Source of the DNA: Artemia franciscana
Lineage: Eukaryota; Arthropoda; Branchiopoda; Anostraca; Artemiidae
Direction of reading: 5' to 3'
Assembly: GCF_032884065.1 (NCBI RefSeq)
Contig: NC_088873.1
Span: 8,691,702-8,755,701, forward strand
DNA: 64,000 bases
The notes beneath the pieces were generated by a model, which had not been told where the DNA came from, searched no databases, and saw only the letters and a list, made by a program, of their open reading frames with translations. Positions 27,923 to 53,544 of this stretch are shown here, one piece after another. The stretch's first letter is position 1. Each line of letters begins with the position of its first letter. A program made the translations under genes and the position numbers.

Positions 27923-28054
27923 TCTAAACTGTTAGCTGTCTTTGATATTAAGGATTGTTTCCGTTTGTTTTTAGTTGCTTTCTGTTTTGAGATAGGTGAG
28001 AGAGCACTTGCATTTCTTTTAAGGAATTGATTTTTTTCTGGAGAGGTTTTTTTT

Positions 28055-30440: not shown

Positions 30441-30537
30441 TGGTTTTTATAAGCAACATTATTTAGCTCGGCAAATTTTTTCTGAATAAAAGAAATGGGG
30501 GTAAGTTCTTTGGTCCACTTTGAGAAGTCAGTCTTTA

Positions 30538-31100
30538 TTATGGGGGTTGACCAGCTCCAAGGGGGGGGGGGGTTTGGGGGAATGTGGGTGCAATTGATTT
30601 TACTGGCACTGGGAACTTCTTCTGGAAATTTGCATAATCATTTGCAACGCCTCCACACATAGATGGATTTCTTAACCAGTTATGCAGGGTATGAGAATCA
30701 TTGGCTTCAATTTTTGTAAGGTACTTAATTAGTAGAGATCTTCTTCTTTCATTTATTGGTGATAGTCCACTCTCAGTAAGCAGAAACTTAATTTTTGTTG
30801 GTTTCCTAAGACCAAATATAAGACGAATTATATCATTTTGTGTCGTTTCGATTTTTTGCATGTGGGTCTTGGCACAACCACCATAAACTATGAGGCAATA
30901 ATCAATATGGGGTCTTATATATGATTTATAAAATTGGAATAGTGTTTTCTCATTACAGCCCCAAGCTGTGGCTAGTAGCCTTTTAATTATTCTTATTTTT
31001 CTATAGCACTTTTTATTGTATTTGTGATGTGGAGGTGGAAATTTAGTTATTGGTCAAGTATGAGCCCTAGATAATTAATTTGATTGTCCTCTGGGATAAG
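30538..31100 (-). pseudogene. LINE B thumb/linker fragment
   Basis: The open block 30538-30861 reads KIETTQNDIIRLIFGLRKPT and LLTESGLSPINERRRSLLIK, which match the post-RT linker also seen in LINE C (ALRIAYGARKSTPIGF, LSESGLEDLQTRR). Sequence to about 31100 has the preceding thumb in broken frames. The block ends in a proline-rich stretch over a 10-base homopolymer (ggggg) near 30560, a likely frameshift site. Confidence 0.75.
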
Positions 31101-31114
31101 TATTCCATTTAATG

Positions 31115-31888
31115 TTAGCCTAGCATCATAATGATTTCGCTTATGGTAGAATTGGATAATTTTGACTTTGTGGGTGCAGTAGGTAAAATGGACTTTTGGG
31201 AGAACTTTTCAAATTGGAAAAGTGCATTTTGCAACTTTGATTGCGCAATCTCGAAGGTATTGCCAGTTGCCCATAATACCAGATCGTCAGCGTACTGTAG
31301 ATTGGTATGTGGGAGGTTCATGTCCCACAGAAAAAGTGAAAATAGGAGGCAGCTCAGGACTGCACCCTGTGGAAGGCCTTTGGTTATTGAAGTTTTGGGT
31401 GAAGAGGCTGAACCTACACAAACAATGAAACTTCGGTTTTCTATGAAGGATTTTATGAAGGATACAAGTTTGGGGAGTAGTCCAAGATTTGTAAGTTTAA
31501 CAAAGAGAATCTGGTGGTCAACATTATCATAAGCTCTTTCAAAATCTAGGAATGCAGCAGTTAAGACATTATTTTTTGATAGGGAGTCATTTATTGCATT
31601 TGTTAACACTATGAAAGTATCTGTTGATGAGTGGTGTTTCCTGAAGCCAGTTTGAGTATGAGGTATCAGATTATTCTTCTCAACAAACCAAAGCAGCCGA
31701 TGGTAAATCATTTTCTCCATTAATTTTCCCAGCACTGGGGTAATCATTATGGGTCTATATGACTGAGGGTCATGTTTAGGTTTGTTTTTCTTTAAAATTG
31801 GTATGAGAGATGAACATTTCCAGTTATTAGGGAATGTGGATGTAGCCCATGTATGGTTATAGCAATTTAGGAGCTCCTGTTTATACAA
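31115..31888 (-). pseudogene. LINE B reverse transcriptase
   Basis: A 257-codon frame with SYRPIMITPVLGKLMEKM at 43-60, TGFRKHHSSTDTF at 80-92, FLDFERAYDNVDH at 113-125, GLPQGAVLSCLLF at 171-183 and QYADDLVLWATG at 198-209. Catalytic aspartates are present; the usual Pro after LS in motif B is Cys here. After about 31160 the thumb moves to another frame (INYLGLILDQ). The RT clearly belongs with the endonuclease upstream and the RNase H downstream. Confidence 0.92.
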
Positions 31889-32040
31889 AGGGGTAAGATT
31901 CTTTATCCATATAGGGTGTATATTATCATAGCTACTTGTAGCATTTGCCCTGATATGTTGTATTGCATTATTAAGTTTATGTATTGAGAATGGACGGTTT
32001 ATATACTCTGAACCTGGTCAGGGCTAGTAAATAGGATTTG

Positions 32041-32988
32041 TCATGATTTGTGTGGTGATATTTTTGTTTTTGATGTTAGCTTTTTTGAGAAAAGGAAGGC
32101 AAATAATTTTGTCTTATCAATGTCATTATCATAGTGGGAATTCTCATATATTAGTTCATACATAAGAGGGTTGGAGGATGTTTTTTTCCCACAGATTTTG
32201 CTTATAAGTCTATGTATTCTTGGCTCAGATGTTTCTCTGGAAAGATTATTTGCAAAATTATTCCAATAATTATATTTGACATTAGTTATTGTTCTCTTGA
32301 GGTTAGCCTCTGCTTGTAATTTACTTAAATATGTGGCAGGGGATGGTTTTCTTAGGTATGCTCTCCTAGTTGCATTTCTTATTCTCCACATAATTTGGCA
32401 ATCTTTTGTCCACCATGCTTTAGGGGTGTGTTTAGGGATGGTTTTCCTAGGTGAAGTTCTGGGGATAGCTTGATTAGCTGTATTTGTGAATATTGATGTC
32501 ATAGCTTCAGCACGCGTGTCAGCAGTTACAACTGAGGTATGAGATTTATGGGTGAAACTTAGGACATCTTCATTAAGTTTATTTCTAAACATGGTCCAAT
32601 TTGCTTTGGTGTTGACATATTTAGGGATATGTGGGAGAATGCTGGCTGGTTCATTTAAAGAGGATACTATTGCAAAATGGTCAGTGCATAGATTTTCAAT
32701 TTTCTTAATATAAATTTTATTTAGTATATTTATTGAAACAATTTGTACGTCAATAGTTGAGAATTTGCCACTTGTGGGGTTAAAATATGTATTTAGCTTA
32801 GGAGGGGTAGCAATTGCTAAATCGGCATTATTTGAAATCAATCTTTCAATAAGCTTACCAGCTTTATTTGCTGGCTTATCTCCCCACAGAAGACTGTGGG
32901 CATTAAAATCCCCGCAGATGATTATGTTTTTTAGCATATTAGAATTAGTAATATAAGTGAAAAATCCAGGCATCTGTAGTCTGGCCAT
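32041..32988 (-). pseudogene. LINE B ORF2 endonuclease C-terminus and RT lead-in
   Basis: The second endonuclease half shows CGDFNAHSLLWGD, FSTIDVQIV and CTDHFAIV, so the catalytic Asp and His are kept, unlike LINE A. It is followed by WWTKDCQIMWRIRNATRRAY, a conserved linker of I/Jockey-type ORF2 proteins, and a basic helical region before the RT. The frame stops at 32041; the RT resumes after a stretch with stops (SIHKLNNAIQHIRANATS). Confidence 0.87.
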
Positions 32989-33358
32989 TAGGGTTATAAA
33001 GACTTAATATGTATGTTTTTGTATTATTTATCCAGACATTGATACCAATAACATCAACATCATTTGAAAAATCTGGGAAATTAATACCGCAAAATTTAAT
33101 ATTATTATTTAAAATTATAGCTACGCCACCTCCTTTTCTCTGTGAAGACCTATCCTTTCTCAGGATAGTATATCCTGGAAACTTTGTTTGTTGGTTATTA
33201 GTCAAATGGGTTTCTTGAAGGCAAGCAATATCAATGGAATTATTATTCAGAAAAGATAAAAGTTCATTTAACTTATTTTTTGAAAGTGATCTTACATTCC
33301 ACTGAAGTATTGAAATATGCTGCTTTGTTGTTATAATTTTCATTTTGCTGTGTATCAA
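32945..33358 (-). pseudogene. LINE B ORF2 endonuclease, N-terminal part
   Basis: Begins at ATG 33358. Motifs: ILQWNVRSLSKNKLNELLSF (N-terminal strand), CLQETHL (catalytic Glu), LRKDRSSQRKGGGVAI and SLYNPNGQ. A frameshift at about 32960-32988 passes the reading to the next block. All expected residues in this half are present. Confidence 0.88.
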
Positions 33359-34009: not shown

Positions 34010-34035
34010 GACAAGTGACATAGACGTCACTTGTC
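34010..34035. repeat. small hairpin at the LINE B 5' junction
   Basis: gacaagtgac (34010-34019) and gtcacttgtc (34026-34035) are perfect inverted repeats around a 6-base loop. They sit at the point where LINE B coding similarity stops. Confidence 0.6.
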
Positions 34036-34118
34036 CTCAATAATTTTTTTTTTTCGGGTTAGAAAGTGCAAGCTCAAGGACAAGTAATCCTGAGCGTTCG
34101 AGAGGGTAATCTTTAGTT

Positions 34119-34231
34119 GCGTTTGATTCGACTCGTAAAAGTTAACTTAAAAGTTGACTTTTTTCTCTGCTGCCGTTTTATTTAGTAAGAAGTTGACCCA
34201 GAAAGTCAACACAGAATTGCGAATCGAACGC
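34119..34231. mobile_element. candidate MITE in the left flank of LINE C
   Basis: Ends gcgtttgattcg (34119-34130) and cgaatcgaacgc (34220-34231) are inverted with one mismatch. Inside are ttaaaagttgactttttt and gttgacccagaaagtcaac segments, partly inverted. Related sequence (ccgagttaact, aatcgaacgc, gaatcaaacgcaac) lies in the centre of the giant inverted repeat at 45160-45340. It has no coding capacity. Confidence 0.5.
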
Positions 34232-34272
34232 TTCAGTAGCAAAAAATTTAGATATGTGAAATCGTTTTGTTT

Positions 34273-34289
34273 AAAGACAAGACAGGGAA
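34273..34289 (+). repeat. left candidate target-site duplication of LINE C
   Basis: aaagacaagacagggaa, identical to 40350-40366. Sequence to its left (atgtgaaatcg) continues in the opposite palindrome arm next to the same motif, as expected for an empty site. Confidence 0.7.
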
Positions 34290-34651
34290 TAAGAAGAATG
34301 GCAAGGAGAGAAAAGATTAAAGCAAGTTATTGGATGCGAATTTTAAACAGTAAGAGTTATCCAATTCAATCGTCACAGAAACAATTCACCGGCTGAGCTC
34401 TGGTTTAACCAAAACTGAATTGTCGCCGCATTGTATTGTTAGAATATAGCGTATCAGTTGGTTTTAGATTTTTGTGACCGAGTTTTAAAGACTGTTTCTT
34501 TCTCGGACAATACTTTTTGTGACCGAGATATATTAACAGCTTATAGTAATGAAGAGAGGACATTGATAAACGAATTTTTATCAGAGAGAGATTCGTGTAA
34601 CTGTGAGCTACATTTTGGTGTATAATTTGTGTAGACCCTCAAGGGACAATC

Positions 34652-36418
34652 ATGGATTCGGGCCTAGTGCCCCTGGTGGACCTTGGTCCAGTGCAATACC
34701 CGAATGTGAGAAGCCCAAGTGGGTATATGAACTGCACAGCCAACCAACATCAGTTGCCAGTGGACGAAAGCAGAAGTGAACATGTCCAGGCTGGCCAAAC
34801 CCAGCTTTATTATAATACTGTGTACCAGGGACAAATGCAACCTAGTAATGTGTATTCAAATCAAGGACAGATGATGATGCAAAATCCCAATGCAGGATCA
34901 GTAAACTACCCCCCACAAATTTATTACACCCCGGTCCAAATGCAATGGCAGCAACCACAGCCACAGTTGATAAGAAACACGGTGAGAGACAATGTGAGAA
35001 TGATGCCATACGCCAGACAGAACACAAGAACAAAGCATGACCCAGTGTCAGTGTCCACTAAGAACAGGTTTGAAATCCTTGAAAGTGACGAAACTGCAGG
35101 GGCAGAAGACAATATGAGTGATATTGGAGATACTGTGAATTGTGCTGTTGCAGAGGGTATTATTTCAGACGAGGACTAACCTAAACTTGGACAGAACCCT
35201 AGTACAAGTGCAGTTTTCAAAAGAAGAAGGACTGAAAACATACCACCCCTCCCATCACCTACTGTAACTGAACAGGTTTCAAGCAGGGTCAGAGCAGTGG
35301 GAGAAATGGACATTCCAGAGAAGGAACTGAACAGTGAATGTGTGATCTTCACACCAGTGGAAGAAGATCAGACCTTTCCAAACGATATGATATTGTTGAG
35401 AATACTGAAAGGAGTTGTGACAAAAGAGGACTTAGAATTTGTGTGCAACAAGGAACGGAAAAAATTAAGTGTACACATGAAGAAAAGTGAAACAAAAGAC
35501 AAACTACTTGCAACAACCAAGCTAGGCAAAATTGATGTGATGTGTCAAGAAAGGAAAAGGCACTCTAGAGGAGTCATCAGAGGAATTGACAAGGAATATT
35601 CAGTGGAAGACATTAAAGCAGAAATTGTCAGTGAAGCAACAGTTTTGGAAGTAAGACGACTCAAGAGGTTCAACAAGGAATTGAAAAAATTAGAAGACAG
35701 TTTTGCAGTGATGGTTATTTTCGAAAGTATGTCTCTGCCTGAGTCAGTGGGATTCATTGGACGTAAAAGAACCGTTTCTCAGTATAACAGACTAGTATTA
35801 CAGTGTTTTATGTGTCAGAAATTTGGACATAGAAAAAATGAGTGCAGAGCCACAACCCCAACGTGCTTAAGGTGCAGTAAAGCACACCATTCCAAAGACT
35901 ACCCCCTCAAAAATGAAGAAGCTACAGTTAGAAAAGAGTTGTATTACTGTAGGAATTGTGGTGGAAAGCATGCAACAACCTCGGCTCAATGCCCAGCGAG
36001 GAACAAATCTCAGATGGTCAATAGGATTGCTGAGCAGCAGCAGATTGGCATTCGTAGGGCAAATGTGACTTATCAGTCATATGCAGCAGCTCTTAATAAA
36101 AAAGCAAGTACTCCACATGCTCACATAACGACGATAACTGCAAGAAGCTCGCAGACAATGGTACCCGTTGAAAAGGTGGAACAGATGAAAAAGGATGCAG
36201 TGCAGACAGCACTTGAGACAGTGACTGCAGCATTGGTGATAAAGCCAGATCTCGTTAATATCACCAATCTGACAGTGGACCAGAGTGTTTTAAAAATATG
36301 TACAGCGTTAGAGTTCATAACGGGTGTAAAACCAGATGCCACCAAGATTGCTGCAGGAATTGCAAGATCTAACAGCATTGGAAGCAACTCTCAGGGAGTC
36401 ACAACCTCAGAAAAATGA
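34652..36418 (+). pseudogene. LINE C ORF1 (gag-like), one nonsense codon
   Basis: One frame from ATG 34652 to TGA 36416-36418, 588 codons, broken only by TAA at 35177-35179. The N-terminal part is rich in Gln, Asn, Pro and Tyr (low complexity). The middle is basic and includes a possible RNA-binding region (VLEVRRLKRFNKELKKLEDS). Knuckles: CFMCQKFGHRKNEC at 35804-35845; then CLRCSKAHHSKDYPL, where Tyr replaces the usual last Cys; then CRNCGGKHATTSAQC. The C-terminal part is alanine- and threonine-rich. This is the expected role of an RNA-binding gag-like protein. The stop codon overlaps the ORF2 start as ATGA. Confidence 0.88.
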
Positions 36419-39400
36419 ACTTGTCCCTACTATCTTGGAACGCACAGTCGATACTCACATATAAAAAGGACATGCTACTAGAATACTCATCAAAGAATGA
36501 TTTGGATGTATTGTGTATCCAAGAAACTTGGCTACACCCGTATATACAAATGAAGTTCAAGGGCTACAGCGTGATACGGAGAGACAGGATTGATCAGAAA
36601 GGAGGAGGAGTGATAATAGGGATAAGAAAAGGAATAACTTTCAAGAAAATAAGTTTCAGAAATTCAGGATTGTTGGAGAAAAATGGAATAGAATTAGTTG
36701 CTGTGAAAGTGTTTTCGAAAAACCTACATGCATTGAATATTATTAACATTTATAATCCACATGGAAATAACAAATCAGTAGGTACTTCAATGCAAGCTAT
36801 TATAGACGAAACTCCAGGTAACGAGAAACATATCATTGTAGGAGACTTTAATGCTCATTCTGATGTTTGGTGTGGTTGTGGAACAAATAATGAGGCAGGA
36901 AATAGCCTTCAAAGATTCATGTTAGATACCCCTGAATCGTGCCTGTTAACACCCAAAGACTTCCCGACACGCATTAATTATTCCAATGGTTCATACACAA
37001 CAATAGACTTGGCTTTTGCCTCACCAAGTTTGGCAAATAGTCATACAATATATACTGTGAACGAACCCACACTTTTCAGCGACCACAACCCATATGTCAT
37101 CCAGTGGAAACAACAAGACCAGGAAAGTGAACCATCAAGCCCCAGATTTTCGATCCAGAAAGCTAACTGGTCAGAATTTGATGAGGCACTGAAATCCATG
37201 GAGATAGATAAAATGCTTATGCTTGCAGAGGAAGTAGACCAAAAAATAGAAATCTTTCAGGGGAAATTGCTGGAGGCAGCAGAAAAAACAATTCCAAAGA
37301 ATAAGCATAACCTGAAAGGACAGAAAAGTACACCCTGGTGGAATGAGGACTGTGAGGAAGCTAAAAAAGAACTGAAGAAGAGAAGACAGAAGTATGACAG
37401 AATCCCAACCCTAGACAGATATATAAAGGTGAAGCGAGCTCATGCTAGATTTAGAAAGAAAGTGAAGGAGGCAAAACGGCATTCCTGGCACACATTTGTG
37501 GAAAATCTAGATTTTAGAGAGTCCAGTGCAAAAGTATATAGATTCATCAAGTGCATGAACACAAGAAACCAAGCTAGGGAGGATAATCCGCCAACTGTCG
37601 TAAATGGGGAAACGTTAGTGGATAACATAGATAAAGCAAATGCTGGAGCAGAATATTTGAAGAATGTAATAGGAAGACAGGACCCCTTCAAAGACGACCA
37701 TAACAGAACAATTTGGAAGGTCAAGAAAGTATCCCAAAAGAAAAGAATGGAAGATTATAACAGACCATTCACAGAAAGAGAAGTAAATGAGGTCGTGAAA
37801 AACCTGCCAAACACCACACCAGGAGATGACCTTATTTATCCAGAATTTGTCAAAAGATTGCCTGAAATATGGATGAAGGAACTGCTGAAGATCATAAATA
37901 TAGCATGGAAATCCGGATATTTCCCCAAGATTTGGAAAAAAGGGACAGCGATTATGAAACCAAAACCAGGAAAAGACTCAGAGAAGATTGAGAATTTCAG
38001 ATTCATAACCCTTTTACCAGTATTGGGGAAAGTCTATGAAAGGCTAGTAAAAAATAGACTCTAATGGTTGATAGACGAAAAGAAAGGCCTCAAAGATTAT
38101 CAGTGTGGATTTCGGCGTAACAGAAGCACTTTGGAAAAATTGGTCTTACTCCAAAGAGATGCATTATATGTATTACAGAATGGCAAAATAATGATAGTGG
38201 TACTTTTGGATGTGCGAGGAGCTTTTGACAATTTGGTTCATCGAAAAATACTAGAAGGAATGATGGCAATGGGATTGGTTGGAAACATTGTATAGTTTGG
38301 AATGAGTTACCTGACAGAACGTACTGTTGTTGTAAAACTTGGCCAATCAGTTTCCATAGTTGAAGTAGAACCAAAGAGAGGAGTTCCGCAGGGGTCTGCA
38401 CTTGGGCCAGATTATTACAATACTGGAGTATATGACATGCCATTAGATGATGATGAGTGCAGACCATCCATTTTTGCTGATGATAATGCATTCTGGGTAA
38501 TTGGAGATAATATGAAGGAAGTAGTAAAGAAAGCACAGGCAATGATGACACAGTTAGAACATTGGGCAACGTCAGCTGATCTGCAATTCTCACCAGACAA
38601 AACCCAGGCTATGATGATAAGCAACGGAAGAATCGAAACACCGGGGAAGTTGACAATGTGTGGAAAGGAAGTGCAATACGTAACAAATGCGCGTTTCTTA
38701 GGATACACAGTAAACAACAAGATGACTGGAAAACAACACGTACAACAGACAAAGAATAGTTGTATCCGAAGAATGAACTTACTACGAATGATCTCAGGAG
38801 CAAACTGGGGACCTAAACCGGAATTTCTCCTAGAGTTCTGTACTAAGTACATACGGGCAAAACTCGAATAAGCGTCAATAATCAGCGCGTCAGATTGTCA
38901 ATCAACATTGTCAAAGTTGGACACAGTACAAAATTCAGCACTTCGGATTGCATACGGGGCAAGAAAATCTACACCCATAGGCTTCATGTTATCAGAAAGT
39001 GGCTTAGAAGATCTTCAGACAAGAAGAAATATGCATATCCTCAGATATACGTCAAAAGTATGGTTGGCAGACAAAAATCATCCAGTTAAGTCCCCGATTG
39101 TAAAGCCCGGACTAGTATACGCCAACAACCAAACAAAGAAAAGGAAAAACTACTATGTCCTTGAAAAGGCTGAAGAACTGATGAAAAATCAAGGAATGCG
39201 ACTAAACTATTCAGAAATGCTGAGTGTGTGCAACCCTCGACGTCCACCACCATGGGAGGTGGACAAGTTGGTTTGCGAGACCAATTTTGAAGAAAGAAAG
39301 ACCATTGTACCAGCATTTTCAGCAATGAAAGCTGAAAAATATCATGGGTATCTAGAAATATATACGGACGGTTCAAAAACGGAAAACGAAGTTGGTGCCG

Positions 39401-40214
39401 CCTTTGTCATCCCTAAATCTCGGATAGCTGAAAAATATAAGCTGCACCCCAGGACCTCCATCTTTCAAGCAGAACTCCTGGCAGTCAATAAAGCAGCAGA
39501 GCACCTCATTCAACACAGATATGGCTGCAACGCATTCTGAATATGCACTGATTCGAAGAGTGTGGTATCAGCATTGGAGAATATTCACGCAAAAATGTAA
39601 CAAGGGAAGTCCTCATTACATATGGAACGATAAGTAAATTGATTGATGAAGGAAGCAGTGTGGTTCTGCACTGGATTCCAGGGGATAGAGGGATCGAAGG
39701 AAATGAAGGGGCAGACCAGGAAGCCAAAGATGCACTTGCAAATGGAACATATGTGGAAGAATTCGCACCAACAGTCATCAACAACATTCGATCGGCCATG
39801 CAACAGATGCGAGTAGCTAGAGCACAACATATCCAAGACGTTACTGGAAATATATTTGCTCTTAAGAAAACAAAACTTCAGCCTACTAAAATCTACTTGA
39901 AGCTCAGTAGAAAGCAAATAAGAATAATCTTCAGACTACGTTCAGGTCATGCTGGATATGGAGTATTCAAAACAAGAATGTTTGGTGAAGATAGGAATTG
40001 CAGCATATGCAGAGTACCAGAGACAAGGGAACATCTACTCCTGAGGTGTCCTGCGCATGAACAACAAAGACTAGAAGTGAAAAGATATTGTCGGACTAGG
40101 AATATCCATCTTACAGTGGAAACTATGTTGGAAGAATGCGAAAATATTGAAGACAGTGTAGAGATGTGTAAGCTGACATGTTCATACGTATCGAAAATTA
40201 AGTCAGTGATTTAG
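36415..40214 (+). pseudogene. LINE C ORF2: endonuclease, RT, RNase H
   Basis: Starts at ATG 36415, overlapping the ORF1 stop. Endonuclease by residue: LSWNAQSI 6-13, CIQETWL 34-40, RRDRIDQKGGG 55-65, VGDFNAHSDVW 142-152, TTIDLAF 195-201 and FSDHNPY 221-227; all catalytic residues are kept. RT: LLDVRGAFDNLVH, KRGVPQGSALGPD and FADDNAFW (F for the usual Y). RNase H: IYTDGSKTENE, FQAELLAVNKAA, ICTDSKSVVSAL and GNEGADQEAKDA. C-terminal motif: CSICRVPETREHLLLRC. One frame runs to about 39595 with stops at 38062 (TAA), 38293 (TAG), 38869 (TAA), 39538 (TGA) and about 39598. A shift in an A-run near 39593 leads to the last frame (39639-40214). Confidence 0.92.
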
Positions 40215-40349
40215 TAGGAAGTTATATAATTAAGTGAAGTGGCGGACTGTAAAGCTCAATTTATTTCAATAGAAGAGAAGGAATCAACCAAGAGAACAAG
40301 GTCCTGAGGCTCGAGAAGAAGCAGAAAGGACCTTAATTCGACGACGACA
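40215..40349 (+). other. LINE C 3' UTR with trinucleotide tail
   Basis: About 135 bp without a long A-tail. It ends ttaattcgacgacgac, immediately followed by the 17-bp repeat. Short simple-repeat tails instead of poly(A) are common in the I superfamily. Confidence 0.6.
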
Positions 40350-40366
40350 AAAGACAAGACAGGGAA
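40350..40366 (+). repeat. right candidate target-site duplication of LINE C
   Basis: An exact copy of the 17-bp motif at 34273-34289, directly after the trinucleotide tail. The giant inverted repeat's left arm resumes immediately to its right. Confidence 0.7.
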
Positions 40367-40817
40367 ACAATCTTGGAAACAGGGAAATAGTGGAAATAAT
40401 CTTAGCTTTTCAGTGACCTGTAAGTAATTTTATGCATATTCCTTGGGATTTAAAGGGTTTTGGTGTTCTAGGCCCATCTTGCATAGGCTAAGCTTAATAA
40501 GGAATCAGAAGAAGATTTTTATGTTGTTAAAAACGTTGGTTCTTTGGAGGGCAGCTATCACATTGGTTAGTTATTTAAATATTACCAAATCAAACAGGCT
40601 TAGTTTCTAAACCAACCTATAATTTTTAGTTGAAAAAAATTAGAATGGTTAGGTCAATGCCCATATTGTATAATATATATTCATTGAGATTGCTGTCTAA
40701 ACTGGATTTTTAGCATAAAGTAGGGGTAAAATTTTACTTTAGCTACTTTTGGCTATCTTTGAAAGAGGATAGGTTAAGAAAATGAAACTTTCAGGGATGT
40801 GTCTAGAGGCTAGAGTA

Positions 40818-41715
40818 TTGGTAAATTTGTAGCAAACAGTATTACTGGCTTTTGTATAAAGTGAATATACCACTTGATGCGTTTTTTATGCTTTTTACAA
40901 ATATAATAATTGCTTCTACCGGAAATTCATATTTTAAGCACTTTTTGATTTCTTAAAAATGACCTAAATATGGAGTATAAAACGGCTTAAAACATTGGTC
41001 TCAAACTTTATAACATTGGACTCAAACTTACTGTTTCATTATATATCCATTTTTTTTAATGATATATTATCCACAAGCACTGAATGTTATGGCTTTTTCT
41101 TCTTCCTTGTTGCCAAAATTTCAATTAAAGCATGTGTTTTTGGTCTTTTTTTTACAAAATAATAAGATAACTGAAATCACAAGTCTGTAATAGTTTAGAA
41201 ACAAATTTGGGCTATGTATTTGTACATCAGGGGGGTGGGGGTAAAGCATAGCATATATTAAATATGTAAACTAACCATTACTGCATTTAATATAGTTAAA
41301 TTTACAGCAAACAGTATAACTGGCATTTGTAATAGCCAGCTTTCATATTTTGACCAAAAACACATGCTTTTATTAAAAATTTGCTGTCAAGGAAGAAGAA
41401 AGCACCATAACATTGATAAAATTTATTTATCCAATTTAATTGTGGAAAATCACTGCTTGTGGATTTTGTAACATTAAAAAATGGATTCATAAATGAAATG
41501 GTAAGTTTGAGCCCAGTGTTTTAAAGTCTGAGACCAATATTCTAAACCTTTTTTATACCCCATATTTAGGTCATTTTTAAGAGGTCAAAAAGTGCTTAAA
41601 TCTGAATTTCCAATAGAAGCAATTATTATATTTATAAAGAGCATAAAAAAACGCATCAAGTGGTATATTCACTTTATACAAAAACCAGTAATACTGTTTG
41701 CTATAAATTAACTGA
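40818..41715. mobile_element. fold-back element FB1, copy 1 (left arm only)
   Basis: An 898-bp element whose halves are inverted repeats about 41265. The left end ttggtaaatttgtagcaaac is mirrored by gtttgctataaattaactga. Inner arms contain aaagtgaatataccacttga. A direct AGTA flanks it (40814-40817 and 41716-41719). The right arm of the giant repeat has one uninterrupted TACT (49687-49690) at the matching place, giving an empty-site reference. No transposase frame. Confidence 0.82.
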
Positions 41716-43749
41716 AGTATGTCCCAGGAAAGTGTTTAAAGTACCTACCTTCACTTCTTTCTCCTCTAGAGGGTCCTGAAATTTTTGGCTACATCAATTT
41801 TTGGTTATCAGTTTCTTTCTCTCTGGCCTTAGTTCTGAAAAGACAATTCCTGTCGATTTAACAGAACTTTAAGCAATAACACTGAGTTTTTCTAAATTTA
41901 GAAATAATATTTTATGCCATCTGATTGTAGGTTAAATATATGGCTGATATTATTTATTCTCCATGAATTTCTGTTTTATTTCATTTCATTCATGTCTGTT
42001 GCTTTCTGTTAAAAATACAATTTTTTTTTAAATCAATCTTCTCTTGTGAAAACAAAATTTGAATTGTTTTTCTTTTTACATGTTGCATAAAATGAAAAGG
42101 AATGCCTGGCCCTTCATTTCATATATTTTAACTAAAAGTTTTTGAGGCAGCTTCTATCAAAACACTACTGACACATTTTAATGTTTTTTTTTTTAGAATA
42201 CATTAGGACACTATTAAAGTTTTGCATTTGCACAGCTAAAAATTGTCTTAAAAAGTGCCAAGTTTAGAGAGTTATTTTAATATTCTTCTTGCTGATAAGT
42301 ATAATTGTTTTAAAAATTCCTTCTGTTTAAAGTATTTTAAAGGGATTCTAAGCCAACCATGGGTATATTTTTGTCACAAATGATTTTGCTCAAGTGAGTA
42401 GGTGGAAAACAAATAGAACATATATTTTTTCTTTTTTTATTATTTCAAGGCTAGAATATCACAAAACTGAGCATTCATATTGCTATTTGTATTTTAAGTA
42501 AATACAATCCCTGATGGGAGTTTTGTTGATACATGTCTCAAAATTAATTTGTCTAAATAAAACAGATATTGTTTATGGGACAGCAGTGAAAAATGGTAGG
42601 AACTATGAATTGAGTTGTTTTTTTTCCAATATTTTCATTTTTCAAATAATTTTTTTCTGGTTACATTTGTCTTCCTGCTTAAGTGGCTGGCACTCTAGGT
42701 TGAGAATACTTTGTCCAAAGGACACAGGTTTAATTCCTGGCATTACCAGTTTATTTGGTTTGGGACAAAGGTCAGTGATATGACTATGTAGATTGAGCCA
42801 GAATTGGCCCAACCTTGAAAGGTTACCTTGAGAAATCTAAGGTCAGTAAGCAGGAAGGGCTTGCAAAGCATTGGATGACTGGTCCCTAGCTTCCTGGCTA
42901 AAGGACCACCTGGTTCTTTACTGGGCTATTGACTTAGCCATAGATGATTTCTTTTAATCCCATTAAATATAAGTACAAAGGAAAGAATGCCAGTAAGATG
43001 GCCCTTCCTTTTCAATGAATTGTTGATGTATAGACAAGAGTGTACATCATAAGAAATGGCTTGTGAATGTTTTGCAATGTTTAAAAATTTGAGACAATTG
43101 CTCAGGTTGGCAACTGAGCACAAAAGTAAAATTTTGCAAATGGTGTTTCTTTGTGACTGTTATATTTATGTAGCCTATTATCAAGTATTTTAAAGTTAAT
43201 CTTCACTGTTTTGTTTCAGTTGCCATTGCCTTAGGAATTTAGTGTTAACAGACAGGAGTCATTGCCTTAGGAATAACAGACAGGAGTTCTCTGTTTCCTA
43301 GCTTCAATAAATTTATATGCAATTTTTAGACCAGGGGTTACAAAGTAGGTCAAAACTTGCAAATGGAACTGTGGTGTGACTAATTAGTTTGTAAGAAATG
43401 TACATCAATTTAAAGATTCAAAAAAACAATCATGTCGAAAACAAGACAAATAAATAAAAGTATCCCTTTACAACCATTTAATGAAGTGTCACAAATGTAG
43501 GTCACCCTTAAGATTGAAATTAACCAAGTTTCAGTTTGAATCTGTTTTCTTTCAACAGACTAAAGGGGCAAACCTCCAAGCTATGACAAATTCAATCTTA
43601 CTTTTGGGCTCTTTCTTTTTCAATAGGAACTTTCTTTGGATTTTTCTTCCAACCAAGTAAAAACAGTAAGGACAGGATCAGGTGTAAGTGACCTCCCATT
43701 TAACCTACATACCCAGGAGAAAATTATGCAACTCTATGCTAATAATTGG

Positions 43750-44010
43750 TAATTTTTTGTTGTTAATATATTTGACTTATAAAGTGAACATACCCCTTGA
43801 TGCCTTGTTTTGTGTTCTTTACAAACATAACAAGTGCTTCAATTGCAAGTTCAAATTTAAGTGCTTTTTGAGCTCTTGAAAATTTGTTTGCTTAGGTCAA
43901 AAAGTGCTTAAGTTTGAATTAGCAATATAAGCAATTATTATACTTGTGAAGAACATACAAAAAGGCATCAAGTGGTGTATTCACTTTATTTGTAAGTCAA
44001 AATGTAAACA
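43750..44010. mobile_element. fold-back element FB1, short copy 2
   Basis: Inverted halves: gtgaacataccccttgatgc (about 43783) against gcatcaagtggtgtattcac (about 43966), with agtgctttttgagctcttg in the middle. Its mirror in the right arm is at about 47150-47650, which keeps a longer centre, so this copy may have lost its middle part. Confidence 0.7.
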
Positions 44011-44019
44011 AAAAAATTA

Positions 44020-44235
44020 CTCCCAACCTGCCTAATTTGCAAATATATAGCCCAAATTATACATTTTCAATGTATTCTGCCACCTTTTAGCCTACTTGTT
44101 TTTCTTTTGCCACAGTTGCTTCAATTCTCAGGTTCTAGGGTTGAGGGATAGATTTGCAGAATCAATAGGAAATATGTAATTCCAGCTTTAGATTTCCATA
44201 TTAGGAGGGTTGGGGCTAAAGTAGAGCTGGGTTGA
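44020..44235. repeat. fold-back repeat FB2, copy 1
   Basis: Inverted halves around a tttgccacagttgcttcaat centre: caaatatatagcccaaatta (left) against a diverged ggaaatatgtaattccagct (right), each followed outward by a ctaaagtagagc- or ggggctaa-type end. Mirrored at about 46925-47150 and related to 50820-51065. Confidence 0.55.
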
Positions 44236-44990
44236 ATATAGAACATGTTAGCTATAATTATTATGTAAATAATAAAGAGTCACCTTTTTTTAACAGGTTT
44301 TCTTCTATAGGCCTACAGGTCCTCCTCTTGGCTTTTACCACATAACATTGTATACCCAGAGAAGAATAAGTAGCGACAAGCTATATATAGGCTACATAAG
44401 CACATGTTGTTTAACAATGACTTCTCAAGAGCCTAACTATGAACCCTTAGTAATATTGACAAGAAATGAGTAACAGAAAAAATTAAATTTAGGCTAAATG
44501 GGCAATTAGGAACTGGATACAGGCTAAAGGGGGCCAAAAACAGGGCTGTATAATTGGAGTTCAAAGAACTCTAATTATACAGTGAATTTTGAAAAATCAC
44601 TGTATACAAGTTATTTTTTAGTGAAGTAAACACTTCCCTTGCTAATTTAGGACTTTAAATTGATCAGCCTTCTGAAATTTTCCTATCCTATGCAATTGAA
44701 ATATTTTCCCTTTTCAGAGCATTAAGACAATCTATCACAATAAAAAAAATATCCAAAGCATCTTGAATGGAATGACTAAAAGAAGACATAAGAAAATCAC
44801 AATCTGCAATCTAACAATTAAACTTCTGGCCATACAAATTGTATTAGGATAACCAGCTCTGAAATAATTGCTCAAGTTGCTTAGTAGTAACTTTAACTAA
44901 TATTGCATTAACTTTATAAGATTTTTCTTAACCATTTTATTATCTACCTATCCCACCCACCCACCTACACAAGAAAAAAGCCAGTTTTAA

Positions 44991-45639
44991 CTAGGCTAAT
45001 AACATAGTTTTTAAGTCTATTTTAGTGCAACCTACCCAACAACATAAAATCAAGCTCAATAACTCACCACACTAGTACACAAAAGTGGTGCCTTCATCTT
45101 GGATCCGTCTGAAGACCTACTCCATGGTTAGCTATAATTGAAACTTCTGCCTTCTTTCCGAGTTAACTTGAGACGAACGTACAAAATGTAAATGTAAAAT
45201 GTAAAAGTTGTTAAAAGTCAACTTTTACAAATCGAACGCTAAAAGTTAACTCGGAATCGCAAATAAAACGTCGGAATGCTGGTTTCAACAACTTGAAAAG
45301 TTTTAGTCAACTTGAAAAGTGAATCAAACGCAACTTTTGTAAGGCTTGTAACTTTTGAAGGTAATCTTGAGTAGGCTTTGACGTCAATGTGCATCTCATA
45401 AAACGCTTGGATTAGTCAGATAGGTAATCAGACAATTAAAAGAACACAGGGGGTGCGTTTGTTTACTTGTCCAATGGGATTTTTACTAATCGAGGTTTAA
45501 CCCCTAAAAGATAGCAACAAATACTTGTCTGGCCACGTGTCACTTAAAACGGCAAGATTAATTGCGAATAATAACAACATTGGTCACGTGTAATTATTGT
45601 TTTAATGCTATGTGAAGTTTTGACAAGGAAGAGGCTAGG
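44991..45639. other. central spacer of the giant inverted repeat, with MITE-like pieces
   Basis: Arm pairing stops here. The sequence holds an inverted motif set (ccgagttaact near 45158, aaagttaactcgg near 45243; gaatcaaacgcaac near 45322) related to the MITE at 34119-34231. It also has acgcttggattagtcagata near 45401 and gggtgcgtttgtttacttgt at 45451, related to 50240-50363. No coding sequence recognised. Confidence 0.6.
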
Positions 45640-46076
45640 ACTTTGGGCCTGTTTCAAATTTTACAGGCAAATACAGCTTCAGCAATTATTTCAGAGCTAG
45701 GTAGCCTAATACAATTTGTGTGGCCAGAAGTTTAATTGTAAGATTTCAAATTGTGGTTGTCATTTGCCTTTTTAAGTCATTCCATTCAAGATGCTTTGGA
45801 TATTTTTTATTGTGATAAATTGTCTTAATGCTCTGAAAAGGGAAAATTATTTCAATTGCATAGGATAGGAAAATTTTGGTAGGCTAATTAATTCAAAGTC
45901 CTAAATTAGCCAGGGAAGTGTTTTTTTTTTTTTTTTTTCACTAAAAAATCACCACGTTCTTTGAACTCCAATTATATAGCCCTGTTTTTGGCCCCCTTGA
46001 TCCAGTTCCTGATTGTCATTTACACTAAATTTCACTTTTTCTGTTACCTATTTATGTTTGCACCAGTTTTACCATT

Positions 46077-46700
46077 GGGTAAAACTGGTACAAACAGTAT
46101 TACTGGCTTTCATATAAAGTGAATATACCACTTGATGCCTTTTGTAATGCTGTTTACAAATATAATAATCGCTTCTACTGCAAGTTCAGATTTAAGCACT
46201 TTTTGACCTCTTAAAAATGACCTATATATGGGGTCATTACAAATCTGTAATAGTTTAGAAACAAATTTGGGCTATATATTTGCACATCAGGGGGTGGGGG
46301 TAAAGTGTAGCATATATTAAATATGTAAACTAACCATTGCTTGAATTTTTTTATGTGTGTGCTGTTGCACTGGTGATTTCTCTTTTCATTAAAATTTGAT
46401 GTGCACAAACACATTAAAAAATAAACAGCAATGGTTAGTTTATGTATATAATATATGCTATGCTTTACCCCCACCCCCCTGATGTGCAAATATATAGCCC
46501 AAATTTGTTTCTAAACTATTACAGATTTGTAATGACTCCATTTATAGGTCATTTTTAAGAGGTCAAGAGGTGAAAAAGTGCTTAAATCTGAATTTGCAGT
46601 AGAAGAAATTATTATATTTATAAAGAGCATATAAGAAGGCATCAAGTGGTATATTCACTTTATATGAAAGCCAGTAATACTGTTTGCACCAGTTTTACCC
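46077..46700. mobile_element. fold-back element FB1, copy 3 (right arm only)
   Basis: The ends gggtaaaactggtacaaaca and its mirror ttgcaccagttttaccc enclose inverted halves centred near 46390. The outer arms (agtattactggctttcatat; aaagtgaatataccacttga) match FB1 copy 1. The left arm of the giant repeat lacks it: gtaatattgacaagaaatga there runs straight through. A second, isolated terminus (gcaccagttttacc) directly precedes the element. Target duplication unclear. Confidence 0.78.
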
Positions 46701-46924
46701 TTGTTTCTTGTTAATATTACTAAGGGGTCATAGTTAAGCACTAGAGAAGTCATTGTTAAATAACATGTGCTTATGTATATATAGCTTTTTGCTACTTATT
46801 CTTCTTTGGTTATATAATGCTTGATGTGGTATAAGCCAAGAGAAGGACCTGTAGACCTATAGAAGAAAACCTGTTAAAAAAAGATGATTCTTTGTAATTT
46901 GCATAATAATTATAGCTTTCTACA

Positions 46925-47150
46925 TGCAGCCCAGCTCTACTTTAGCCCCAACCCTCCTAATATGGAAATCTATAGCTGAAATTACATATTTTCTATTGAT
47001 TCTGCCAATCTATCCCTCAACCCTTGTACCTGTTAATTGAGGCAACTGTGGCAAAACAAGAACTGGAAAAACAAGTAACAGGTGGCAGAAAACATTGGAA
47101 ATATATAATTTGGGCTATATGTTTGCAAATTAGGCATGTTAGAGGTGAAT
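46925..47150. repeat. fold-back repeat FB2, copy 2
   Basis: The mirror of 44020-44235 in the right arm. It carries ctactttagccccaaccctc, the aattgaggcaactgtggca centre and gggctatatgtttgcaaatt. Confidence 0.55.
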
Positions 47151-47650
47151 TTCTTGTTGTTCATATTTTGATTTACAAATAAAGTGAATATACCATTTGA
47201 TGCCTTTTTGTATGTTCTTTACAAATATAGTAATTGCTTATTTTGCTAGTTCAAGTTTAAGCACTTTTTGACCTTACTTAACCTAACAAATTTTGGCAGT
47301 GAAAAAAATCAAAAATGACCAAAAACATGTACCTTAATTGAAAATTTGGCATCAAAGAAGAAGAAATACAGCATAATATTGTAAAATTTATTAATCCAGC
47401 CTAATTGTGGAAAATCAGTGCTCATAGATTATACAACATGTAAAAAATGGATTAATAATGAAACAGTAAGTTTGAGACCAATGTTTTAAGCTTTCTTATA
47501 CCCAAAAACTATTTGAGTATACTTTGGTCATTTTCAAGAGCTCAAAAACTTGTACTTGAAGCACTTACTATGTTTGTAAAAAATAAAAAAGGGCATCAAG
47601 GAGTATGTTCACTTTATTTGTAAATCAAACATATGAACAACAAAAAAATT
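47150..47650. mobile_element. fold-back element FB1, copy 4
   Basis: Inverted halves: aaagtgaataccatttgatg-like sequence near 47180 against catcaaggagtatgttcact near 47595. The centre (about 47300-47510) resembles the centre of FB1 copy 1, with gaagaagaaatacagcataa and gtaagtttgagaccaatgtt. It mirrors copy 2 in the left arm. Confidence 0.7.
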
Positions 47651-50229
47651 ACCAATTATTAGTATAGCTGCACAATTTTCCCCTGGGTATGTAGGCTTAG
47701 TGGAAGATCACTTATACCTGATCATGTCCCTACTGTTTTTACTTAGTTGAAAAAAAATCCAAAGAAAGTTCCTATTGAAAAGGAAAGAGATCAAAAGTGA
47801 GATTGAATTTGTCATAGCTTGGAGGTTTGTCCCTTCAGTCTGTTTAAAGAAAACAGATTCATAATTGAAGCTTTGTTCATTTCAATCTTAGGGATAATCT
47901 ACATTTGCTACACTTAATTAAATGGTTGTAAAGGGATACTTTTATTTATTTGTCTTGTTTGTTTTCTACATAATTTTTTAATCTTTAAATTGATATACAT
48001 TTCTTACAAATTAATTAGTCATATCATAGTTCCACTTGCAAGTTTTGACCTACTTTGTAACCCTGGTCTCAAAATTGCATATAAATTTATTGAAGCTAGG
48101 AAACATAGAACTCCTCTCTGTTTAAAAGAAAATGGATGGACATAGGTAGGTTTTAATACACTAAAGTCCTAGGGCCATGGAAATTAAAAAAAAACAAACA
48201 ATGAAGATTAACTTTAAAATTCTGGACATGACATAAATATAACATTCACAAAGAAAAACCATTCACAAAATTTTACTTTTGTGCTCAGTTGCCAACCTGA
48301 GCAATTGCCCTAAATTTTTAAACCTTGCAAAACATTCACCAGCCAATTCTTATGACCTACACTGTTGTCTGTACATCAAAAATTCATTGAAAAGGATGGA
48401 CCACCTTACTGACATTTCTTCCTTTGTACTTATATTTAATGGGTTTAAAAGAAAGCTCCTATGGCTAAGTCAGAAGCCTAGTAAAGGACCAGGTAATCCT
48501 TTAGACAGGAAGTGCAATAGGAAGCTAGGGGCCAGTCATCCTATGCTTTTGCATGTCCTTCCTGCTTACTGACCCCAGATTTCTCTAGGTAACCTCACTA
48601 CATCACTGACCAGTTACATCACTGACCTTTGTCCCAAACCAAATAAACTGCTAATGCCAGAAATTAAACCTGTGCCCTTTGGATAAAGGATTCTCAACCT
48701 AGAGTGCCAGCCACTTAGGAAGGAACACAAATGTCACCAGAGAACAAAAATTATTTGGAAAAAAGAAAATATTGACAAAAAAAAAATAATAACTCAAGTC
48801 ATAGTTGCTCATTGCTGTCCCACAAACAATATGTATTTCATTAAGACAAATAAATTTTTAAACAGGTATCAACAAAACTCCATCAGGGATTGTATTTACT
48901 TAAAGTACAATCAGCAATATTAATGCTTAGTTTTGTGATATTCTGGTTTTGAAATAATAAAAAAAGATAAATTATATGTTCCACTTGTTTTCCACAAGCC
49001 CATTTGAGAAAAATTATTTGTAACAACAATATACCCATGGTTGGCTCAGAATCTCTCTAAAATTCTTTAAACAGAAGGAATTTAAAAAAAATTATACTCA
49101 TCAGCCAGAAAAATATTAACATAACTCTCTAAACTTGGCACTTTTTAAGACAATTTTTAGCAAAGCAAATGCAAAACTTTAATGGTGTCCTATGTCATCT
49201 AAAAAAAAAACATTAAAATGTGTCAAATGAATTTTGATGTAAGATGCCTCAAATACTTTCAGTTGAATCTGTGAAATGAAGGGCCAGGTATTCCTTTACA
49301 TTTTATACAATATAAAAAAAAAAACGGTTCAAATTTTTTCACAAAAGAAGAAGCTTGATGTAAAAAAAATAAATGTATTTTTAACAGAAAGCAACTGACA
49401 TCAATGAAATCAAATAAAACAAAAATTCATGGAGAATAAATAATATAAGCCATATATTTAACCTATAATGAGGTGGCATAAAAGATTATTTCTAGAATTA
49501 GAAAAAAACAGTGTTATGGCTTAAAGTTCTGCTCAATCAACAGGAGTTGTCTAAGGCCAGAATAATTAAGAACTAAGGCCAGAGAAAAAGAAACTGATAA
49601 CCAAAAAATAAGGCACCCAAAAATTTCAGGACCCTTTAGAGGGAAAAGAAGTAGAGGTAGGTACTTCAAAATACCTTCCTGGGACATACTTTAGCCTGTA
49701 GACACATCCCTGAAAGTTTCATTTTCCTAGCCTAACCTCTTTCAAAGCTAGCCAAAAGTAGCTAAAGTAAAATTTTACCCCTACTGTATCTTAAAAATCC
49801 AGTTTAAATAGCAATCTCAACAAATAGCCTATAGACTATATAAAAGGCTATAGGTATTGGCCTAATCATTCTAAATTTTTTCCAACTATAGGATGGTTTA
49901 GAAACTAGGCATGTTTGATATAATAACATTTGACTAACTCACCAATGTGATAGCTGCCTCCCTAAGAATCAACCTTTTTAATAGGCTAACAAAAAAACTT
50001 TTCTTCAGACTCCTTATGAAGCTTAGCCTATGCAAGACAGGCCTAGAACACCAAAAACCCTTTAGATACTAAGGAATATGCATAATATTACTTACAGGTC
50101 ACTGAAAAGCTAAGATTATTTCTATTATTTACAGTTTCCTTGTCTTTTCTCTAGACTTAACGATTTCACATGTTTATCCATTTAAAAAAAGATATAGCAT
50201 TGACGTCACAATCCTCAAATAATCTTTTT

Positions 50230-50363
50230 ATTTGGGGTTTGCCCACGGACAAGTAATCCTGAGCGTTTGTGGGGATAATCCGACTAACCTCTGACGTCAT
50301 ATGTGTCTCAAAAAACGCTTGGATTAATCAGATTAGTAATCGGACAAGTAAACAAACGCACCC
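50230..50363. mobile_element. candidate MITE at the outer edge of the right arm
   Basis: A palindromic segment: taatcctgagcgtttgt (about 50254) pairs with aaaaaacgcttggatta (about 50311), and the right end is gtaaacaaacgcaccc. Related pieces occur at 34079-34100 (ggacaagtaatcctgagcgt) and at the palindrome centre (45400-45475). No coding capacity. Confidence 0.5.
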
Positions 50364-52588
50364 AGGGATAGATTGTCAATCCAAAGCAAAACATTTCAAA
50401 TTATAAGCATGATATGTAACCCAGAAAATATAAATAGTGTTTCTTTATATTTGTCTAAGGTATTTAGATTTTATCATATAAACTTCACAATAGTAAGTTT
50501 TGAATAGAAAGTTAAGACATAATTCTCTAGTACTCTAGGATTATGAGTTTTATTTCGTCACTGGGCTTAGTAACCACTCTACGTTTGTACTAGTTATTAT
50601 TAGTATTGATAAAATGATTGATGATTTATTCAATCCTCTAAATTGGCTGTAACCTAGGCCTAAAAAACATACTTCAGCCTGTATTGTTTTTTATTCATAG
50701 AAACAAGTTTCAAAATGTTTGCTTTTTAAAATGTGTGTGCTAGGATTTTGCTATCTTGATAATTTTATGGGTTTTAGGTTGTTGATTTTGATATAAGCCT
50801 AGAGAACAATATGTAGTAAAGGAGACTTGCTATACTTTACCCCCCACCCTATTGTACAGATCTAGATAGCCCAAATTGTATATTTCCAGTTCATTCTGCT
50901 ACCCATTACTTGTTTCTCTGGTTTTTGTTTCACTGCAGTTGATTTGGTTTACTGGTACATGGGTAGAAACAAGATAGAGAAATTTTGAGAATAGATGGGA
51001 AATATACAATTTTGGCTAGTTATTTGCACATTAGGAGGGGGGGGGGTAAAATGTAGCAAGGATGCACACAAAATTGCTAGCTTCAATTTATTCTGGGTAC
51101 CTTATTCTGCACATTATGAAGTAGGCTATGAATTGTTTTCTTAACATATTTCCTTCTCTAGCCATTTTCTTTTTCATGTGGTTTACCTAGGAAGAAACCC
51201 TGTTGGCTACATTACTTGATGTTTTATGCTCTTCAGGATTTTTGATTTTCAAGGTAATGTACTGCTTCAGGTACTTTGTCTTCATCATTTCCTCTTGTAT
51301 CCCTTTTTTTCAACACTCTGGTTATACAAGTCAAAATCTTTAGGTTCAACAAAGGTTTCTGAATGATTGATTTGGTAGAAAGCATTGTTTATTGCTGAGT
51401 TCTGACAGACCAGGGTAGGCTCCTCAACAGTTACTGTTTATTATTGGATGCAGCTGTATATGTGTACATAACCAGAGTCCCATAGTCCTGTCTCAAAGTC
51501 TCATCACCTTCTAGGAAAATGACTGTAAAAGCTCTTTGGCAGACCTGCTCATTTCCTAGAGTATTGAAATTTGGCTTAGAGATCTATTTATATTTCCAAT
51601 GAATTAATACACTTTAATCTATTCTGATAATAATACCCTCACCTCCTATGGGCTCCTGGTTTCTAGCCCAGTTTTGTAGTATCTCACTTCAAAAAGATCT
51701 CTAGTCCCCACTTGCATAGGATGCAATTGGTATTTGTTGTTCTTATATAACAAAATGATGGTCCCATAAGTCCCTTTAAAAAAATGATAAATGCACAGCA
51801 TTAATTTCATTCTCATGTTGCTCTGGCCAAAGCTAATCTCCATTTAAGTTCCAATTACAAAAAAAAACTTCCTACTATTCTACTGAACAGCAAGGGTGAG
51901 AGGGACCATATGGTCACATTTTTCCTAAATCATATGTGTTAGTCCTTAGTGATTCCAGTTCAAACAAGGTATATCATGCCTACCTGTCATGTAGAATTTG
52001 TTGATGTGGTTGGCAAGTTGGGTTGTTTAAGGACTCCGTGGCTTACTTTTGTTGTCAATTAATATAGGTTTAAAATCTCTATAATGTTTTGACTCAAAAA
52101 GGTACTAGATGTCTATCTTACTGGTAGAAATTTGGTTAGAAGGGGCATATATTACTTTTGTTCAAAGTCTCTGAAATTCAACAGTTTTGATTCAGTCAAT
52201 TGGAAGTCCATAGCTGGTTTTGAGCCTAGGGGAGTATTGTCCCAAGTTTTTGGAAAAAACCTGGGGCCTATTTTTAGATTACCCCCTTCTTTGACCACTG
52301 AAGTTGCAAGCCTCAAAGTGCATTTTTGATATGTCCTTGGATGAAATTAGCTCTTTATTAGATGTTGACTATTGCAAAACACTCCAAGTGGAGCTATTCT
52401 AGAGAGAAAAAAAGTAGAGTTGCCTTAATTAAATGCCTAAGCTCCACTATAACCACATCTAGGCTATCTTAAAGAATTCTATATTCAGGCATTGTCTGGG
52501 TTCTTCATTGAGTCAACATCTCTTTCGTGCTACATAAATTGACTTACTTGACTAAAGTCCCATTCAGCCTTGGTGTTTGTCTTGGGGC
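50364..52588. other. unrecognised region with one FB2-like repeat
   Basis: At 50820-51065 a fold-back resembles FB2: ctatactttaccccccaccc with tagcccaaattgtatatttc on the left and ggaaatatacaattttggct with ggggtaaaatgtagc on the right. Elsewhere I recognise no gene; frames of about 65 codons (51646-51843, 52132-52329) lack motifs. Confidence 0.45.
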
Positions 52589-52912
52589 CTATCTCCTCAC
52601 AAGCAAATATATTTGTTGTTTAAACTGCTCCCTGTTTTGTGCCAATCTTAGAAGACCAGGGAGGTTGCAGTCAAAGTTCCCCTTCCAGTGCTTTGGAGGG
52701 TGACTGCAAGGGCAATAACCATGGATACAACCTTTGAAGGCGATTTTTGGTATTTGGTTGTTGCACATGCACTGGACATGGCCAAGCCACCTGAATTGTT
52801 GGACATAGACCCAGTTCAGGATGGTAGTGTTATGCTGAAGTCTTTTGAGTAGGTTGGCATTTGAGACTTCATTGAGATTTGTGTATGTAATGCCAGCAAT
52901 TTGATGCAGCAT
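52589..52912 (-). pseudogene. RTE-like ORF2 C-terminal fragment
   Basis: A 107-codon frame containing FRWLGHVQCMCNNQIPKIAF, then HPPKHWKGNFDCNLPGLLRL and an AQNR-type ending. The RWLGH-x-x-M and IPK-x-A motifs mark the C-terminus of many RTE-like ORF2 proteins. The frame begins with an alternative part of the linker (LLKRLQHNTTILNWVYVQQ). It is cut from its RT. Confidence 0.7.
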
Positions 52913-52958
52913 TGTCTCAAATGTGGCAAGTTGCCAGTATTTATTTTATATTTATCTT

Positions 52959-53107
52959 ATTTGAACTCAGTAAATTATCACAAATTGAATTTAATCCAAA
53001 TTCACCTGTATCTCTATTTATGGAATTATTCTCGAATAAATTTTTTTTAATTTCTAATAGGTGAATTTGGATTGAATTCAATTTATGATAATTTATTGAG
53101 TTCAAAT
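52959..53107. repeat. near-perfect hairpin, 49-bp arms
   Basis: Arms 52959-53007 and 53059-53107 are inverted copies (ttgaactcagtaaattatca against tgataatttattgagttcaa) around a 51-bp AT-rich loop. A MITE or palindromic insertion inside the RTE-like fragment is likely; no target duplication identified. Confidence 0.75.
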
Positions 53108-53544
53108 AAAGTAAATATCACCTCACCTAAAAGCTATGACCTCTGTCCACATAATATGTCAGATAAATCTAATGAACTGGAACTGAAAAGGACAAAGAGA
53201 CTGGCTTCTGCTGTTGCATTGAAAAAAATCAAGAGCAGTAAACTATATGTAATTAGTTTATTAGGTATAAATTTTGTTTGGTTTTAGTCATGTCTTTTAG
53301 TTTTACTGCTGATGATGAACACTTATATGTGTTCAAAATATCCAGTTAAATTTTAAATCTGTTCAGTGTCAATAAAAAGGTTTCATCCCTATTTTGAACT
53401 GTTTTACTTTTGTCAATACAGAATTGATGTAGGTTTTGGTGGTTCTTTCAGGGGATCTCCACATGACTTTTCATTGCTCTCTGTGTTTGAAATAAGTGTT
53501 GGTTACTACCAGCTTGTTGTCTTTGCAGTATTCCAGAAGGCACT

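Follow-up and report, generated by a model that had tools for sequence, protein, structure and literature searches.

The stretch analyzed here (the window) comprises 64,000 nucleotides of Artemia franciscana DNA (contig NC_088873.1, positions 8,691,702 to 8,755,701; C11:8691702-8755701 in the 1.27-Gb host assembly used for genome searches) and contains two long arms in inverted orientation, the left of which holds a long interspersed nuclear element (LINE C). The two arms are almost certainly neighboring insertions, in opposite orientation, of two related, distinct gene-free transposon families, termed L (left arm) and R (right arm, the window copy being R1), with LINE C inserted on top. Dispersed copies of the arms, separate terminal inverted repeats (TIRs) and target-site duplications (TSDs), and an empty site for R1 together argue that the structure is neither a true palindrome nor a foldback element.

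Inverted similarity of the two arms

Self-comparison of the window revealed that 40375-44879 is collinear, block by block, with the reverse complement of 45674-50139 (Table 1). The first-pass annotation had described reverse-complementary arms of more than 4 kb, and this was borne out both by the self-comparison and by pairwise alignment of the arms, which gave an identity of 89.3% and a Kimura two-parameter distance of 0.116 over 3,467 ungapped columns of the four main blocks. Identity ranged from 86.5% to 91.5% across successive 200-column blocks. With gaps included, BLAST returned 80-90% per block, and 84% to the right arm for the block containing the piece of left arm used in genome searches. 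The arms were compared by local blocks, as arm-specific segments break a whole-arm global alignment at both ends.

The similarity is real, but the extent first given to the arms required revision: each is interrupted by a palindromic segment of its own, no symmetry is present in 44880-45673, and the true units exceed the symmetric part (34115-45335 and 45451-50363). At least 15 of the 20 L loci, but not L026, contain the segment that interrupts the left arm, and the one that interrupts the right arm recurs in R copies as self-inverse matches.

Dispersed copies, ends and target duplications

Genome searches with a 1.5-kb left-arm piece found at least 24 other places at 90-95% over at least 1,476 of 1,501 bases, and four further places at 89% over all or nearly all of its length; 42 matches were reported, and 40 of the 2,324 first-look candidates were scored. 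With a 1.3-kb right-arm piece, at least 37 other places were recovered at 95-99% over at least 1,326 of 1,327 bases; here 93 matches were reported and 40 of the 4,130 candidates were scored. The counts from both searches are lower bounds. Among scored copies the R1 family (95-99%) is more uniform than the L family (mostly 90-95%). Given 90-95% identity to 24 places versus 89% to the right arm, the left-arm piece is nearer to its dispersed copies than to its partner in the window.

The L units were defined from 20 left-arm loci (L009-L028). Element L in the window carries the TIR AGTTGCGTTTGATTC, is flanked by the 3-bp TSD TTT, and has a length of 5,144 bp when LINE C and one copy of the LINE C target duplication are excluded. 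Identical 3-bp flanks, for which the chance expectation is 1/64 per copy, were observed in 8 of 9 L copies (the window and the 8 of 20 loci having both tips in the searched form), the duplications being CAG, CTA, CTG, TTG, CTA, TTG, TTA and, in the window, TTT. The R ends were obtained from eight right-arm copies (records L029-L044). R1 carries the TIR GGGTGCGTTTGTTTACTTGTCC with AGG on both sides as its 3-bp TSD, and identical 3-bp flanks were present in five of the six R copies with both tips found as well as in window R1 (CCC, CAT, AAA, CTG, TAG and AGG). By the comparisons made, L and R share a core and, the TIR tip excepted, do not share ends.

An empty site was identified for the right arm. 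Window 51500-53000 matches C725:19232-20735 at 99%, and an exact L 3′ end is located at C725:17952-17982, 4,915 bp nearer to that match than in the window. C725 is continuous across the R1 position, with R1 absent and AGG single, and its flanks are 98% (45293-45451) and 94% (50289-50619) identical to the window; the second match starts within the R1 end because an old R-type end resembles that of R1. At the expected place of L and LINE C, the C725 piece is a different sequence. Whether C725 is an allele or a duplicate, its empty site indicates that the right arm entered alone as one 4,913-bp unit.

Insertion of LINE C into element L

A perfect 17-bp target duplication (34273-34289 = 40350-40366) brackets LINE C, which terminates in a short CGA repeat and contains Pfam matches to an endonuclease (Exo_endo_phos_2) and a reverse transcriptase (RVT_1), together with a weak RNase_H match (E 1.1e-4) under the Pfam curated cut-off. 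The LINE C site is uninterrupted in 15 of 20 L loci, where it is 12-23 bp shorter than the joined window flanks; one side of the site was not found in the remaining 5. The right arm is without LINE C at the corresponding place, and its outer end matches the left flank of LINE C, as first reported. These observations support insertion of LINE C into an already existing element, with the right arm representing a paralogous empty site.

The earlier proposal that LINE C entered an arm of a pre-existing palindrome thus holds for the pre-existing element, which is contiguous in those 15 loci, but not for the palindrome. The order proposed with it (palindrome, divergence, LINE) fails because the arms are independent insertions with their own TIRs and TSDs and an R1 empty site; consequently, the 11% arm divergence measures the distance between two families rather than the age of a palindrome, and there is no long-lived, unstable palindrome whose persistence calls for explanation.

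R-type ends around the arms

Sequences 34019-34111 and 45353-45448, on either side of L, resemble overlapping parts of the R1 3′ end in direct orientation (R2, Table 1). In flanks of 250 bp, taken from the 16 of 20 L loci with mapped ends and from the window (for which the L ends used were off by up to ~20 bp), R-terminus sequence was detected in 15 of 27, or 13 of 25 excluding the window, the two flanks of one copy not being independent. It lay within ~25 bp of the junction in 10 of 17 L copies (9 of 16 excluding the window). None of 337 control tiles contained it, these being drawn from this window and the transposase loci rather than from matched repeat-rich sites. R-terminus sequence was also present in 3 of 13 R copy flanks, from which the L flanks did not differ significantly (p = 0.09). 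The flank counts suggest targeting of R ends by L.

At L025 (C13:4.57-4.58 Mb), an L copy interrupts an R-type element in its 5′ end, with duplication of 3 bp (R5 4-97 precedes L and 94-142 follows it), and adjoins a partner-type end. The nearest other core copy, scored by eye, was opposite in 10 of 13 L loci and the same in 3 of 13 (7 of 20 L loci had no other core copy of at least ~250 bp, and L026 and L027 count as one locus); an orientation bias among L loci was not established (p = 0.09). L026 and L027 (C206:29018-33890 and 36467-41334) form a 4.9-kb inverted pair of 99.75% identity on a small contig. The pair consists of the same elements, separated by a partial L copy, and is either a genuine palindrome of recent origin or a product of misassembly.

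Table 1. Features of the inverted arms, the elements that compose them and related places in the assembly
Feature	Position	Strand or orientation	Basis or remark
Arm block	40375-40818 vs 50139-49686	inverted	self-comparison
Arm block	41712-43851 vs 49694-47547	inverted	self-comparison
Arm block	43879-44466 vs 47294-46704	inverted	self-comparison
Arm block	44464-44879 vs 46053-45674	inverted	self-comparison
Outer arm piece	34254-34289 vs 50171-50136	inverted	self-comparison
Element L, non-autonomous TIR transposon	34115-45335	+	ends mapped against 20 genomic loci
LINE C, inserted in element L	34290-40349	+	6,060 bp; Pfam segments and 17-bp TSD
L-family segment, inverted-repeat ends	40820-41711		interrupts left arm; not in right arm
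Element R1, non-autonomous PIF/Harbinger-type transposon	45451-50363	+	4,913 bp; ends compared with 8 genomic copies
R-family palindromic segment	46077-46700		interrupts right arm; not in left arm
Core common to R1 and L	45674-50171; L part 40386-44879	-	nearly CpG-free
R2 terminus, left piece; older R-type end hosting L	34019-34111	+	73% to 50198-50280
R2 terminus, right piece; R1 at its tip	45353-45450	+	45353-45448 77% to 50267-50360; empty site
Further partner places	C1, C2, C6, C10, C13 (33.05 Mb), C16, C18		shared interior order and DDE_Tnp_4 match

A candidate transposase partner for R1

A genome search for the exact R TIR gave 263 occurrences, against none for its reversed control. Among the 100 places listed, 18 opposite-strand TIR pairs are ~4.9 kb apart. 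A longer pair, C4:52000323-52016301, encloses a DDE_Tnp_4 transposase (344 amino acids), is flanked by the TSD TAA, and has ends that align with the two R1 termini, one over 174 bases at 91% and the other over 142 bases at 96%. The end-adjacent interior of this C4 partner recurs in the same order around a scored DDE_Tnp_4 match at seven more places (Table 1). When these and C4 were measured by hand, the eight places had gaps between matches of 6.1-9.3 kb to one side and 3.1-4.8 kb to the opposite side; the order is preserved at a ninth place (C13, 4.59 Mb), where the gaps are wider. R-partner-type places are a minority of the 150 transposase matches scored, and a link to R emerged for none of the other transposase families. 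From the shared ends and 3-bp TSDs, R1 appears to be moved in trans by the DDE_Tnp_4 transposase of longer same-ended elements. On the basis of its 3-bp TSDs and similar TIR tip, L is probably also a non-autonomous PIF/Harbinger-type element. The top eight transposase loci extended by 1.5 kb (L045-L052) contained neither the L nor the R TIR at up to two mismatches.

A 9.2-kb pair of exact R TIRs at C4:44018543-44027766 has an inner end that matches the partner interior; no transposase was scored inside it, which suggests a further non-autonomous R subfamily. The locus L053 (C7:37708700-37714700) represents a second, distinct DDE_Tnp_4 family with an open reading frame containing a BESS motif on the opposite strand. 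Autonomous PIF/Harbinger elements are expected to have a second open reading frame with a Myb/SANT-type DNA-binding domain; among the transposase loci read, the BESS-motif frame was seen at L053 only. On the minus strand of the window itself, 18836-19171 encodes part of a MADF DNA-binding domain (Pfam E 1.5e-07) that may derive from a Harbinger-type element.

Assembly of the structure and alternative explanations

The arrangement almost certainly arose from the following insertions. L entered a terminus of an R-type element that predates it (R2), LINE C subsequently entered L, and R1, before or after L, landed at the tip of that R2 terminus. R1 would have been mobilized by a PIF/Harbinger-type DDE transposase supplied from longer elements with its ends, and L probably by a related transposase. 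The apparent palindrome is then a by-product of two insertions that have a 4.5-kb core in common. Nested and neighboring insertions of non-autonomous transposons, plus one LINE insertion, are ordinary events; mildly unusual features are the near absence of CpG from the common core, the location of this core between ends that are unrelated in L and R, and the frequent presence of L within R-type ends.

The inverted collinear similarity across 4.5 kb is what an old inverted segmental duplication would leave, that is, a true palindrome that diverged and then received LINE C. Such an origin has virtually no probability, however, when the left arm is nearer to dispersed copies than to the right arm, TIRs and TSDs are separate for each arm, an empty site exists for the right arm alone, and the R-type sequences that flank the arms are direct rather than inverted. 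Foldback elements are long inverted DNA tied to mobile elements. A single giant transposon of this kind, with the arms as its terminal repeats, would have the long inverted arms, short middle and mobile-element ends on both arms seen here, but is scarcely credible given that TIRs are present at both ends of each arm, that copies elsewhere with both tips are single ~5-kb units, and that R1 has its own empty site. The foldback elements Tetris and Galileo (PMC4079207, PMC4168063) likewise combine long inverted DNA with mobile elements, and differ in that the inverted symmetry here consists of two separate insertions. An assembly artefact (a false inverted join or a collapsed haplotype) is very improbable: repeats of this kind can mislead assembly, and C725 is structurally unlike the window, but the arms are 11% different with different internal segments, the sole run of N in the window (17429-17528) is distant from them, and the R1 junctions comprise a clean TSD with a matching empty site.

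A number of observations weigh against two independent PIF/Harbinger-type insertions. The flanks of L015 differ (CTG/CCG) and contain no 3-bp TSD, and the 3-bp flanks of one R copy (L034/L033) do not match; 12 of 20 L loci and 2 of 8 R copies, in which both tips were not found, lay outside the TSD test. TSDs of the R copies are not of the TWA type, which occurs only in the C4 partner; because related PHIS groups use other triplets, according to PMC4482050, membership of R1 is claimed at the PIF/Harbinger-type level and not for the TWA group. Upstream of 45293 the window has no match in C725, which may be either an allele or a duplicated locus. In the 100 listed places of the exact R TIR, a single pair has a scored transposase inside it, and since C4 is the one partner place of which the tips were read, the link of R to a transposase consists of one element read at both tips plus shared interior DNA. 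For L, no transposase partner was found among the transposase loci compared, and the 403-amino acid transposase locus L053 has no end in common with L or R.

With two insertions as the preferred explanation, a false palindrome is removed, and inverted arms that are ~10% diverged need comparison with dispersed repeats before a duplication is called. A broader proposal, that the nearly CpG-free, non-coding 4.5-kb core spread between families with unrelated ends, that L prefers R ends, so that clusters and large inverted repeats are built repeatedly, and that the CpG-free body may have helped the L and R families to escape methylation, is put forward tentatively and is on balance unlikely. If true, it would offer an accessible case in which to study how transposons nest within one another's ends and how a CpG-poor body passes from one family to another.

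Composition and coding content of the shared core

The R1 core contains 4 CpG dinucleotides against 112 expected (observed/expected ratio (o/e) 0.036), in comparison with o/e values of 0.80 and 1.13 for the R1 ends; that of the L core is 0.07. In 1-kb tiles from the window and the loci from L009 on, with tiles of intermediate core content excluded, median CpG o/e was 0.048 for tiles with more than 90% core (58 of 88 under 0.1) and 0.534 for those with less than 10% core (15 of 136 under 0.1). TpG in the R1 core is raised (1.25), in keeping with ancient decay through methylation that preceded capture; selection against CpG is another possible source of the CpG poverty. As R copies are 95-99% alike, most of the CpG loss predates their spread.

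Pfam searches of R1 in six frames gave no convincing match (one at E = 0.044) and nothing to indicate that a transposase gene had been deleted. Among stop-to-stop frames of at least 90 amino acids in the two cores, the longest measure 93, 99 and 109 amino acids. One scan of viral contigs with a 27-base core pattern returned no match.

A further CpG-poor stretch (o/e 0.07) adjoins R1 at window 50800-56000. Within it, 51500-53000 has one 99% copy (C725) and one partial 91% copy (C11:10.74 Mb), and contains a dispersed repeat of ~400 bp.

Relation to known systems

PHIS groups with TWA, CWG, ANT and TNA TSDs (PMC4482050), non-autonomous PIF/Harbinger members and nested insertions in Medicago (PMC2213677), and Pack-TYPE elements, non-autonomous DNA transposons with other DNA enclosed by their ends (PMC8903248), have been described. 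The present elements resemble PIF/Harbinger (PHIS) elements in the 3-bp TSD and the short TIR beginning with A or G and, for R only, in the DDE_Tnp_4 transposase of a longer same-ended element. They differ in that the TSDs are mostly not TWA and in the body, 4.5 kb in length, which is non-coding and almost free of CpG. Like Pack-TYPE elements they are non-autonomous, with other DNA between transposon ends, but R1 is without a coding fragment by Pfam in six frames. Neither family was met in the literature searched, the scope of which did not extend to Repbase, and no claim of absence from print is made.

Other elements in the window

Scans of the window with Rfam (gathering cut-offs) and for tRNA genes gave no match. 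A degenerate tandem array with a unit of ~275 bp occupies 1448-5640, and at least two more LINE-type elements, with endonuclease and reverse transcriptase split over several frames, are present on the minus strand at 24328-33003.

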